From an uncultured Mycoplasma sp. (GTDB taxonomy: Bacteria > Bacillota_I > Bacilli_A > RF39 > UBA660), in contig CANOGG010000002.1 in NCBI GenBank assembly GCA_947565485.1, positions 1 to 15,988 of the forward strand: a stretch of 15,988 nt of DNA. Reading direction: 5' to 3'. A model generated the notes under the pieces. That model saw only the letters and a list, made by a program, of their open reading frames with translations, had not been told where the DNA came from and searched no databases. Numbering within the stretch: position 1 is the first letter of the stretch; each line of letters opens with the position of its first letter. Made by a program: the position numbers and the translations under genes. Positions 13,843 through 15,988 of this stretch are shown here, in pieces.

Positions 13843-15076
13843 CTAAGTTCCATGAACGACATATGGATTATTTGAAAGTCCAGTTCCACCCCCTTCAAAG
13901 AGAGAGGAAGATTTGAGGTTGATGACAGGTCTCACACCAGTGTTGTTAGAAATAATATCATTCCAACTAAGATATCCTGGTGAACGTACATAAAACATAC
14001 CAGCCTCATCATAGTACCATAGTCATATGGAGATATGGTCCAGTAACTGCTATTCGTATATAAGTACGAACTGGTATTTACAGGCGAATTATATACTATT
14101 CCTCCCATTTGCACTTCATCCGCAGTTATTAAACCAATTGGCGTCTTAAATATATCTTCTTCATTTGAACATAACAAACTTGGAGTTTTATTGATAATCA
14201 ACCTAGCATATGTTGCATAATATGTTTGCATAGTTCCTATTCCACTTCCACTATGTATTGTTCAATCATTACAGAAGCCAGCTTCTATATCTATATTTGA
14301 TGAATAATTATTTTTTAATGTAGCATTATACCAGCCATATAAAGTTGTTTTATCCGCAGAATTTTTTTCTCCAAGTATGGTAGAATTTGTGCCATTTCCA
14401 TGAACTTCGCCACTTGTATATTTAAAACCTACATACTTATTATCATATATCATTCTAAGTGAGCCATTAGAATTGTTTCTAATAATTCTCCACCAAATAT
14501 ATTTAGAGCCATCTTTACCAAACACAACCCAGTTATTATCGACATTTCCTCTAAAGTATTTTATTGATTGACTTCCTCCTGAATAATCACCTTTGGTCCA
14601 TTCGTAAATACCATCACCTGTTATTCCAGCAAACATATTATCTTCAGTAGGTTTACCATCAGGTATTTTATCCGCGGCATTTACTTTCTTATCTAAATAA
14701 ACATAGCATTTAACTCCTCCATTTACTAATTTAGAAAATGTTAAACCTCCATTCTCATAAGTAATTGTAATATCAACAAGGCTTCCATTTTTATTCTCAC
14801 ATCGTGTTTAGTAGTATCTTCATTTAAAACATAACCACTCTCAGGTACTTCACTTGCAAGCTCGTACTCACCAGCATCATTTTCAACATACGCTTCTGCC
14901 AAATACAAGTCAGGTCGATTATACTTGATTGTACCTTTTGCAATATTGATACTGTTAGTACTTCGATATTTAGCTAAGCTTAGAGATAGTATTAATACAC
15001 TAAATAAGAAAATACTTATAGTTACACCTATTGCTATTCTTTTAAAACTCTTATTATTTAAAGTTTCAAAATTCAT
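13843..15076 (-). pseudogene. Anchored surface protein with DUF6273-like C-terminal module, broken by three lesions
   Basis: The 1234 bases become a 412-codon frame if two single bases are restored. Lesion one is near 14788-14792, where a run of five A (minus strand) needs a sixth to join HDVRIK to NGSLVDITITYENGG. Lesion two is an in-frame TGA at 14262-14264, between EAGFCND and TIHSGSG. Lesion three is a one-base loss near 14017, between SPYDYG and YYDEAGMFYVRSPGYL. The rebuilt protein has an N-terminal membrane helix (FKRIAIGVTISIFLFSVLIL...SLA, about 12-34), a strand-rich stalk, a domain with KYIWWRIIRNNSNGSLRMIY, and a C-terminal module ending NNTGVRPVINLKSSSLFEGG. This last pattern resembles DUF6273-type surface proteins. 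The function is unknown, perhaps binding. Ribosome site (AAGGAGG), promoter and terminator are all intact, which points to recent decay or on/off switching. Confidence 0.75.
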
Positions 15077-15269: not shown

Positions 15270-15773
15270 ATGGACTTTGGAAAAAAGTTAAAAGATATGA
15301 GAACTTATGAGTTAATCACTCAAGAACAAATAGCAAAAGAACTAGGTATAAAAAGAAGTACCTACAAAGGTTATGAAAATCATAATAGAATTATCCCAGT
15401 AAACAGACTAAATGACTTTTGTAATTTATTTAACATTTCCTTAGACCATTTCTTTGAAATATCAAAACAACCAACATATAATCTAACAAATAAAACGATA
15501 AATAATCAAAAATATCATTCTAGAATAAAAAGTGTACGCATAGAAAATAATTTAACACAAGCCCAAATGGCTAAAATATTAGGCATCGGCAAGTCTACAA
15601 TTTCCCAATATGAGAATGGAGATATCCCTATATCAACATTTATACTGTATAAAATATGTAAAAACTTTCATGTGAGTGCTGATTATCTTCTTGGTAAAAT
15701 AGATAGTGACCCAATAAAAACAACAACTGAAGATATCATAAAAAATATTTTAACAGTTTTTGACCAAGAATAA
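15270..15773 (+). CDS. XRE-family transcriptional regulator with two helix-turn-helix domains
   Basis: This 167-residue DNA-binding protein has two Cro/C1-type HTH domains in tandem. The first (about 4-64) contains LITQEQIAKELGIKRSTYKG and YENHNRIIPVNRL. The second (about 84-142) contains NLTQAQMAKILGIGKSTISQ, YENGDIPIS and the typical domain end FHVSADYLLG. A short Asn/Lys-rich linker joins them, and a short acidic helix ends the protein. There is no peptidase or ligand domain, so it is a simple regulator; two HTH units in one chain could bind two half-sites without dimerising. It is divergent from the surface-protein gene, whose promoter region carries several palindromes, so control of that gene and of itself is the natural inference. 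The ATG at 15270 has GGTGAT upstream. Confidence 0.9.
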   Translation: MDFGKKLKDMRTYELITQEQIAKELGIKRSTYKGYENHNRIIPVNRLNDFCNLFNISLDHFFEISKQPTYNLTNKTINNQKYHSRIKSVRIENNLTQAQMAKILGIGKSTISQYENGDIPISTFILYKICKNFHVSADYLLGKIDSDPIKTTTEDIIKNILTVFDQE

Positions 15774-15777
15774 TATC

Positions 15778-15806
15778 TTTAAAATTTAATATAGTAGAGT
15801 TATAAT
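15778..15806 (+). promoter_or_regulatory. Promoter-like sequence between the XRE gene and the right-edge segment
   Basis: TTTAAA (15778-15783), a 17-bp spacer, then TATAAT (15801-15806). Transcription would start near 15813, about 26 bases before the GC-richer segment. In DNA this AT-rich such matches also arise by chance. Confidence 0.5.
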
Positions 15807-15838
15807 TTCACTAGGGCTAATCTATTATAATAATATGT

Positions 15839-15952
15839 AGTTTGTCTCCGTATAACTTCGAAAGTGGTTGGGCTAACGTGTTCTTTGTGCATTCGTCTGG
15901 CTATCTGAACAACAACAACGTGGACAACACTCGTGGTGTGCGCCCAATATCC
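15839..15952 (+). other. Start-less DUF6273-like module with an AAC run: candidate retroelement template repeat
   Basis: Read in the frame of 15839, this segment gives SLSPYNFESGWANVFFVHSS, then GYLNNNNVDNTRGVRPI and a short unrelated tail to a TAG at 15971-15973. That is only the last module of the DUF6273-like fold seen in the nearby pseudogene (SPYDY...FYVRSPGYLS...NNTGVRPVI). The frame is closed upstream by a TAA at 15818-15820 with no start codon in between, so it is not a gene. It is about 46% G+C over 15841-15950, clearly above its surroundings, and holds seven AAC codons, four in a row (15908-15919). Length, lack of a start, AAC richness and fold match template repeats of diversity-generating retroelements. 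A silent recombination cassette or a gene relic would also fit. Confidence 0.5.
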
Positions 15953-15988
15953 TTTTACCACTCATATATTTAGGCTAAGGCTTATATA

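Follow-up and report, generated by a model that had tools for sequence, protein, structure and literature searches.

The AAC-rich segment at the right edge of the window, which is the entire contig C2 (15,988 bp) of assembly G000, is very probably, on sequence comparison, the template repeat (TR) of a stand-alone RNA gene serving a diversity-generating retroelement (DGR) in trans. As part of the same explanation, we consider it highly likely that the layout seen here represents a DGR in which a single cis cassette has been opened out, so that an enzyme operon, numerous templates and numerous targets stand apart. The case for such a dispersed-template DGR is strong at the level of the genus and indirect at the level of the window. 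G000 is an assembly of 1.30 Mb in 219 contigs and is 79.8% complete, and as the window is a whole contig, its template element breaks off where the contig stops. The genomes named in comparison are MAGs, and the promoter and terminator described here are predicted.

The original prediction of a DGR template repeat had started from a terminal SPYNF...GVRP module without a start codon, which is indeed present and translates as SPYNFESGWANVFFVHSSGYLNNNNVDNTRGVRP. The run of four AAC codons that it reported was found as well, and so was the deviant base composition, the GC content being 49% in the TR (15845-15946) versus 29% in the window and 18% directly upstream (15774-15838); a GC content as high as that of the TR occurs in 0.025% of the contig's 102-nt stretches. 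The window's list of open reading frames contains none of at least 60 aa covering the segment. The feature exceeds the module first described, with a -10 box, an RNA start at about position 15,814 and a structured tail (Table 1). The conserved GGTGTGCGCCC(A) at the end of the TR is common to TRs and variable regions (VRs) and has an IMH*-like position; together with the tail it lies, by position, at the expected place for IMH/IMH* and cDNA priming. The assignment as a DGR template repeat is upheld by matching VRs, by an adenine bias in congeners and by the presence of the same RNA beside avd and RT in related genera, but an ordinary cassette with an adjoining reverse transcriptase (RT), as had been implied, is not supported: the templates are scattered, separate RNA genes, and no RT operon was found beside them in the genus.

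Table 1. Features of the template RNA gene and of the neighbouring target-family gene in the window (positions on contig C2 of G000)
Feature	Position	Strand	Basis or remark
Target-family (DUF6273-like) gene, several frames and a stop	13852..15076	-	Broken or misassembled
VR end (...GVRPVINL) of the split target gene	13927..14055	-	66% identical to best known template (C12)
-10 promoter box TATAAT of template RNA gene (predicted)	15801..15806	+	Exact; 7 nt before 5' motif GGGCTAATC
Template RNA gene, cut by contig end	15814..15988	+	Alignments A1/A2 of 8 complete own-genome copies; RNA model matches
5' strand (GGGCTAATCT) of template-loop closing helix	15814..15823	+	3' strand falls past contig end
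Template repeat (TR) ending in conserved GGTGTGCGCCC(A)	15845..15946	+	TR-VR comparison
Four AAC codons, typical mutable template codons	15908..15919	+	Sequence
Structured 3' tail, first 42 nt, truncated	15947..15988	+	Alignment with complete copies; tail model R1; covariation

Near-identical copies of the segment had been anticipated at the 3' ends of DUF6273-like genes. A blastn search of G000 returned 11 further places (E 3e-39 to 1.3e-7), two of which, on C138 and C47, are such 3' ends; the other nine stand alone, eight of them complete (two on C101 and one each on C161, C12, C187, C111, C48 and C90) and the ninth, on C10, truncated. The complete units align from the 5' GGGTTA(A/G)TCT to the terminator hairpin and are 251-291 nt long. 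A covariance model of the tail, R1, made from these eight own-genome sequences over 156 positions, matches nine places in G000 at E < 1e-12, giving ten template RNAs with the cut copy of the window; four weaker matches (E 0.004-0.6) were set aside.

The same RNA is present in 32 of the 36 genomes of the genus, with 0-25 copies in each (the maximum being that of G013), often in tandem at a spacing of about 300 bp. When 60 genomes were scanned, own included, none of the 24 from outside the genus had an R1 match at E 0.001. In a sample of 288 genomes of the order, 32 match R1 at E 0.01, namely 13 of this genus and 19 from 11 other genera, so that 12 of 102 genera are positive overall; these are low estimates, owing to stricter filters and to the few candidates scored per genome. 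One or two copies were found in 15 of the 19 genomes from other genera. The remainder are G097 (five copies on five contigs) and G140 (three on three), both of g54 in the same family, G143 (four on three) and G235 (three on one), and their copy numbers indicate that template dispersal is not strictly limited to this genus. Several contigs (C2, C10, C12, C90, C138 and C47 of G000 and C2, C24 and C50 of G035) end within or close to a template RNA or VR; these repeats therefore probably fragment the assemblies, and template counts from MAGs are probably low. Phages were rejected as carriers, the single exact-motif match in viral_contigs appearing by eye to be a chance match in a GC-rich phage-like locus.

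Conserved structure and a promoter box support the view that these units are RNA genes. In a tail alignment of 91 matches (89 distinct), which was fitted to R1 and therefore favours the structure, 97.2% of 3019 cells are paired, 29 of 36 pairs show two-sided changes, and the covariation score is 0.428, versus 0.179 when shuffled and at most 0.111 with slid partners. Independently of this alignment, we compared the ends of the unit in the 96 distinct copies that have both a recognisable 5' motif and at least 120 nt of tail. In 94 of them, versus 12.5 expected from shuffled 5' strands, at least 9 of the 10 bases at the 5' end can pair with a downstream stretch, whose distance from the start of the conserved GGTGTGCG is 64-72 nt; compensatory variants such as GGGTTAGTCT/AGACTAGTCC and GGTTTATCTT/AAGATAAATC keep the pairing. 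Thus, a helix closes the loop in which the TR sits.

Of 100 distinct template RNAs in which the 5' motif is recognised, 71 have an exact TATAAT at 4-11 nt upstream of it (5.8 expected from shuffles) and 38 have TGNTATAAT (0.4 expected), whilst complete copies have a predicted terminator hairpin at the 3' end. A looser criterion for the box (five of six bases anywhere in 22 nt) was discarded as uninformative, with 75 of 83 copies carrying the 5' motif (of 87) counted as positive at a shuffle expectation of 0.70. Rfam contains no family matching the window at gathering score, and none matched four other loci at E 0.01.

The targets of these templates are DUF6273-like genes with a matching VR at the 3' end. 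With target profile A4, built from ten full-length targets, G000 gives 58 matches and each of seven further genomes 47-105; these are counts of matches, fragments and the templates themselves included, and not of genes. The 20 VRs read in G000 are very diverse between SP and GVRP. PF19789 (DUF6273) gave a sub-threshold match (22.3 bits, cut-off 23.5) for one of three family targets scanned, and the AlphaFold2 model of a target has a pLDDT of 39.8, too low to be of use. The fold associated with DGR targets is of the C-type lectin type, and one paper, in the part available, notes a resemblance to C-lectin for the DUF6273-like domains that phage DGR targets carry (PMC10743442). In related targets of L248 and L252 we noticed by eye a type IV pilin-like N-terminus (FTLVELLAVIVIL and FTLIELLAVIVIL, respectively), which suggests surface display of the variable domain.

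The target-family gene of the window is split into the pieces C2:13852-14016, 13989-14444 (with one TGA), 14445-14807 and 14807-15076; stops are also found in other target matches of G000 (C47, C138 and C102), which are pseudogenes or assembly errors. Proteins of about 155-170 aa with a double HTH adjoin templates or targets at several places (15270-15773 (+) in the window, where HTH_19/HTH_3 are matched in two stretches; 115-582 in L018; 11121-12289 in L100) and could possibly be regulators of the target family.

RTs of several kinds were found by an RVT_1 search in 34 of the 36 genus genomes. RTs of the DGR type carry the motifs [LIV]GxxxSQ and YxDD. The RT class of interest in the congeners, about 370 aa long with GLPIGNMTSQ and YMDD, has these motifs. 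In the loci read, the operon runs from a MutS_I protein (MSL, about 135-140 aa; MutS domain I match, E 7.6e-6) through a bAvd-like protein (about 117 aa) to the RT. The bAvd-like proteins, from congeners only, match PF22296 at 40.2 bits in G015 (cut-off 40) and, below the cut-off, at 34.5 bits in G016; NCBIfam DivGenRetAVD matches that of a congener at E 1.3e-9, with 38.3 bits versus a cut-off of 80. A survey by Wu et al. 2018 reportedly names an MSL accessory gene. Several class RT or MSL matches occur in some genomes (e.g. G007, G032 and G033), one enzyme being usual.

The operon and the template RNA tend to be found together: at E < 1e-40, a cut-off picked after seeing the table, MSL is present in 25 of the 32 genomes with template RNA and in none of the four without. 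Two of the latter, G002 and G031, have weaker MSL matches, and G031 also has a divergent MSL-like/Avd-like/RT set; such a set occurs in G034 too, a genome with a single template RNA. An empty operon site, its flanking genes about 380-460 bp apart, is seen in the template-free genomes G002, G021 and G031 and also in G014. The latter genome (L304-L306) has three template RNAs despite its empty site, and the RVT_1 search found no RT in it; these templates may be orphans, or the RT may lie elsewhere. In G000, G010, G011 and G029 neither of the operon-flanking genes was found, so that a lost operon is there indistinguishable from a missing region; in G004 the operon is present even though the first flanking gene was not found.

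A TR in cis near the RT is common among DGRs and is not mechanistically required. GTDB genomes were scanned with an RT profile, and 80 loci were kept of 509 encoding a relative, mostly from uncultured Bacilli with names that include Candidatus Caccenecus, Faecimonas and Onthousia. None of the 23 loci with at least 70% RT identity had a template RNA in the flank, the flanks being unequal and some of them short. Among the 57 loci with less than 70% RT identity, 23 have a template RNA 0.2-2 kb from the RT (E < 0.01) and 34 have none at this threshold; these matches at distant loci arise although R1 was trained on the window's genome. Within the genus, one contig of G035 carries both the RT and, about 40 kb from it, a partial template RNA. 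Two of the distant loci, L239 and L240, are classical cassettes composed of target, template RNA, MSL-like gene, Avd and RT. In L216 and L238, two to four different templates stand in tandem before avd and RT, and L218 also has tandem templates, with weak R1 matches just above the threshold (E 0.011-0.017). Together these arrangements suggest a progression in which a single template in cis was followed by an array in cis and then by dispersed trans templates, in an order of events that we infer.

If the units are DGR templates, the differences between TR and VR should fall on template adenines. We compared 69 distinct TRs and 86 VRs from nine genomes (G000, G001, G004, G010, G015, G016, G019, G033 and G035; G013 was left out). 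Each VR was paired with the best-scoring TR of the same genome by a base-neutral score, which gave 84 pairs after two VRs without a usable anchor had been dropped; the match list is complete for G000, and VRs of the other genomes are the best among the matches listed or come from loci otherwise read. When the 84 pairs are taken together, TR adenines account for 1037 of 2441 mismatches (odds ratio 2.9). For the 32 pairs with at least 75% identity, which derive from six of the nine genomes and include one own-genome pair, the figure is 432 of 663 (odds ratio 8.0), with mismatches at 432/933 (0.463) of TR adenines versus 231/2365 (0.098) of other positions. The adenine effect is directional, since only 68 mismatches of these pairs have A in the VR, versus 432 with A in the TR.

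Split by genome, the mismatches at TR adenines in pairs of at least 75% identity number 125/173 in G001, 120/204 in G004, 140/200 in G019, 17/20 in G015, 18/43 in G010 and 12/23 in the single pair of G000, and G016, G033 and G035 have no such pair. The bias is weak in G010 (6 pairs, odds ratio 1.9) and absent in G035 (6 pairs, odds ratio 1.2). The best TR-VR identity reaches 80-87% in G001, G004 and G019 and at most 79% in the own genome (C138 with C12); two VRs (locus L110 of G001 and locus L147 of G004) have their best template at a distance of about 0.5 kb, whereas in other cases it lies elsewhere. In most detected DGRs, 75% or more of the differences are at A, as stated in the available part of a survey (PMC8144416); the lower share of 65% found here would be expected if the exact template is often missing, and may also reflect drift.

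The predicted concentration of substitutions at template adenines thus holds for several congeners and hardly for the own genome, where TR adenines account for 188 of the 661 mismatches in all 19 pairs (odds ratio 1.4, symmetric). In that genome no more than two VRs have the TR of the window as their best template, with identities of 66 and 58%. This near absence of bias is what would be seen if the own lineage were a relic that has lost the RT operon and keeps templates and targets as drifting leftovers, a reading that we take seriously and nevertheless think doubtful. Other observations fit it too: no MSL or RT of the class was found in G000 or in G010, which is 90% complete; among the nine own-genome copies with an upstream end, an exact TATAAT is present in only five (C2, C101 at 387-541, C111, C48 and C161) and not in C90, C12 (5 of 6 bases), C101 at 1053-1209 and C187; the target gene within the window is broken; and G014 retains its three templates although its operon site is empty. 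However, the closing helix is kept in all eight complete own-genome copies, and with only nine own-genome TRs known for 19 VRs the true templates may be missing. The two operon-flanking genes are also missing from G000, and the absence of the operon there is therefore no proof of loss.

The same consideration applies to the two results that had been named in advance as contrary to a DGR template. No fitting RT was found in G000, the next 1-2 kb suggested for such a gene lying beyond the contig end, and the differences among the own-genome copies are spread over all four bases. As the assembly is 79.8% complete and lacks both operon-flanking genes, neither result is decisive.

The many partial 3'-end copies and the many paralogous targets could also be those of a system of silent gene-conversion donors, as in pseudogene-type antigenic variation, which would work with no reverse transcription. 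Consistent with this, differences among TRs involve every base, and A is mildly over-represented: in a control in which each TR was compared with its nearest other TR (66 pairs of at least 75% identity), 401 of 1041 mismatches were at A (odds ratio 1.8), that is 401/1831 at A versus 640/4800 elsewhere, with a weak asymmetry (401 and 320, p 0.003). Gene conversion nevertheless predicts donor-identical tracts without base preference, whereas the VRs differ from their templates at TR adenines and do so asymmetrically; moreover, the supposed donors are structured RNA genes whose relatives adjoin a DGR-type RT. We therefore regard this explanation as very unlikely.

We think it similarly improbable that another RT of G000 serves the templates in trans. 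The assembly contains three RTs, on C158 and C38 (group II type) and on C174 (phage type). The first two (L026 and L027, respectively) were rejected as partners because they have the GIIM domain; the frame of the C158 RT has an internal TAA. The third belongs to a phage-type DGR-like locus (L028; C174, 190-1248 (-) and 1865-3481 (-)) with an RT of 352 aa and a target that ends in VGARL, of which two further partial copies lie alongside. Of the three, it alone has IGNxTSQ and lacks the group II maturase domain, and a similar RT, with phage-like neighbours, occurs in G010 (L275), where the class RT was likewise not found. However, it has 32% identity to the class RT, the VGARL module of its own target, with its repeats alongside, is unlike GVRP, and the tail RNA is tied to the msl-avd-RT class in relatives. 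Finally, an accidentally duplicated 3' end of a DUF6273-like gene, since decayed, would also encode the family's terminal module without a start codon, but such fragments would share no conserved non-coding tail, and as a unit of TR, tail and terminator, mostly with a promoter box and with covarying structure, recurs in 32 of the 36 genus genomes, this reading is refuted at the genus level and almost certainly wrong for the window.

Returning to a DGR with templates acting in trans, its cycle can be outlined by analogy with the Bordetella phage BPP-1. An msl-bAvd-RT operon elsewhere in the genome, usually with one full-length copy and sometimes more, would supply the enzyme. By the BPP-1 mechanism, as described in the available part of PMC12875486, RT-Avd would bind the tail of the template RNA and prime in it, and the RT would copy the TR with errors at adenines. 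The cDNA would then replace the VR of whichever target matches (mutagenic retrohoming), and one might speculate that the MutS-like protein guides mismatch handling during integration. Beyond this, we tentatively propose that a trans RT operon, a genome-wide and expandable library of templates that differ in framework, and paralogous targets of surface type, numbering in the dozens, form a many-to-many repertoire generator. Its template unit of promoter, TR, tail and terminator may multiply and gain new TRs, possibly copied back from targets, and may have spread at least within the genus and perhaps in g54 as a second genus.

If true, small-genome gut Bacilli would devote a large gene family to directed hypermutation by one or a few enzymes. 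A template RNA of about 270 nt, with a structure supported by covariation, would be a minimal and modular trans template and would make the recognition by RT-Avd, the matching of template and target, and the role of the MutS-like partner directly testable. DGR surveys start from the RT and then seek repeats around it, as described in the available parts of PMC8144416 and PMC3521204, which means that they would overlook or underestimate templates that stand alone and targets that lie far off.

In comparison with known systems, the elements described here share with BPP-1 (mtd/avd/TR/brt) the DGR-type RT, Avd, the adenine-directed TR-VR differences and the C-terminal VR. They also share a structured RNA downstream of the TR, and in BPP-1 this spacer recruits bRT-Avd, according to the part of PMC12875486 that was available. 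Unlike BPP-1, which has one cis TR between avd and brt, they have many TRs, each in an RNA gene of its own; most of these genes have a promoter box, the complete ones have a terminator, and none was seen beside the RT operon of the genus. An example of a likeness in cis is the cassette L239 of Candidatus Onthousia excrementipullorum, which has the same template RNA family (R1 E 1.1e-6), an MSL-like gene, recognised by eye, preceding Avd-RT, and a target ending in RPVIN. Related Bacilli differ from the present genus in that their cis cassettes have a single template, or two to four in tandem (L216, L238 and L218), adjoining the operon.

Targets located away from the RT are also known from the DGRs of Thiohalocapsa PB-PSB1 (PMC10907252), Treponema denticola (PMC4891356) and Trichodesmium (PMC8867640). 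As far as the available parts of these papers go, PB-PSB1 has targets thought to be diversified in trans (PMC10907252), T. denticola in metagenomes is said to have more than one TR in an individual (PMC4891356), and none of the three systems as described has dispersed stand-alone template genes like those found here. The MetaCSST survey, likewise available in part, reports more than one TR per system, for example six TRs on a contig or two TRs with six VRs, and deems the six-TR case atypical because of its few substitutions at A (PMC6642488); unlike these cases as described there, the templates presented here are stand-alone RNA genes and arrays. In a literature search of limited coverage, with few subscription papers, we found no account of dispersed, individually promoted DGR template RNA genes. 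Thus, DGRs, remote targets, activity in trans and several TRs per system were already known, and what the present genus adds to them is the trans, many-template layout.
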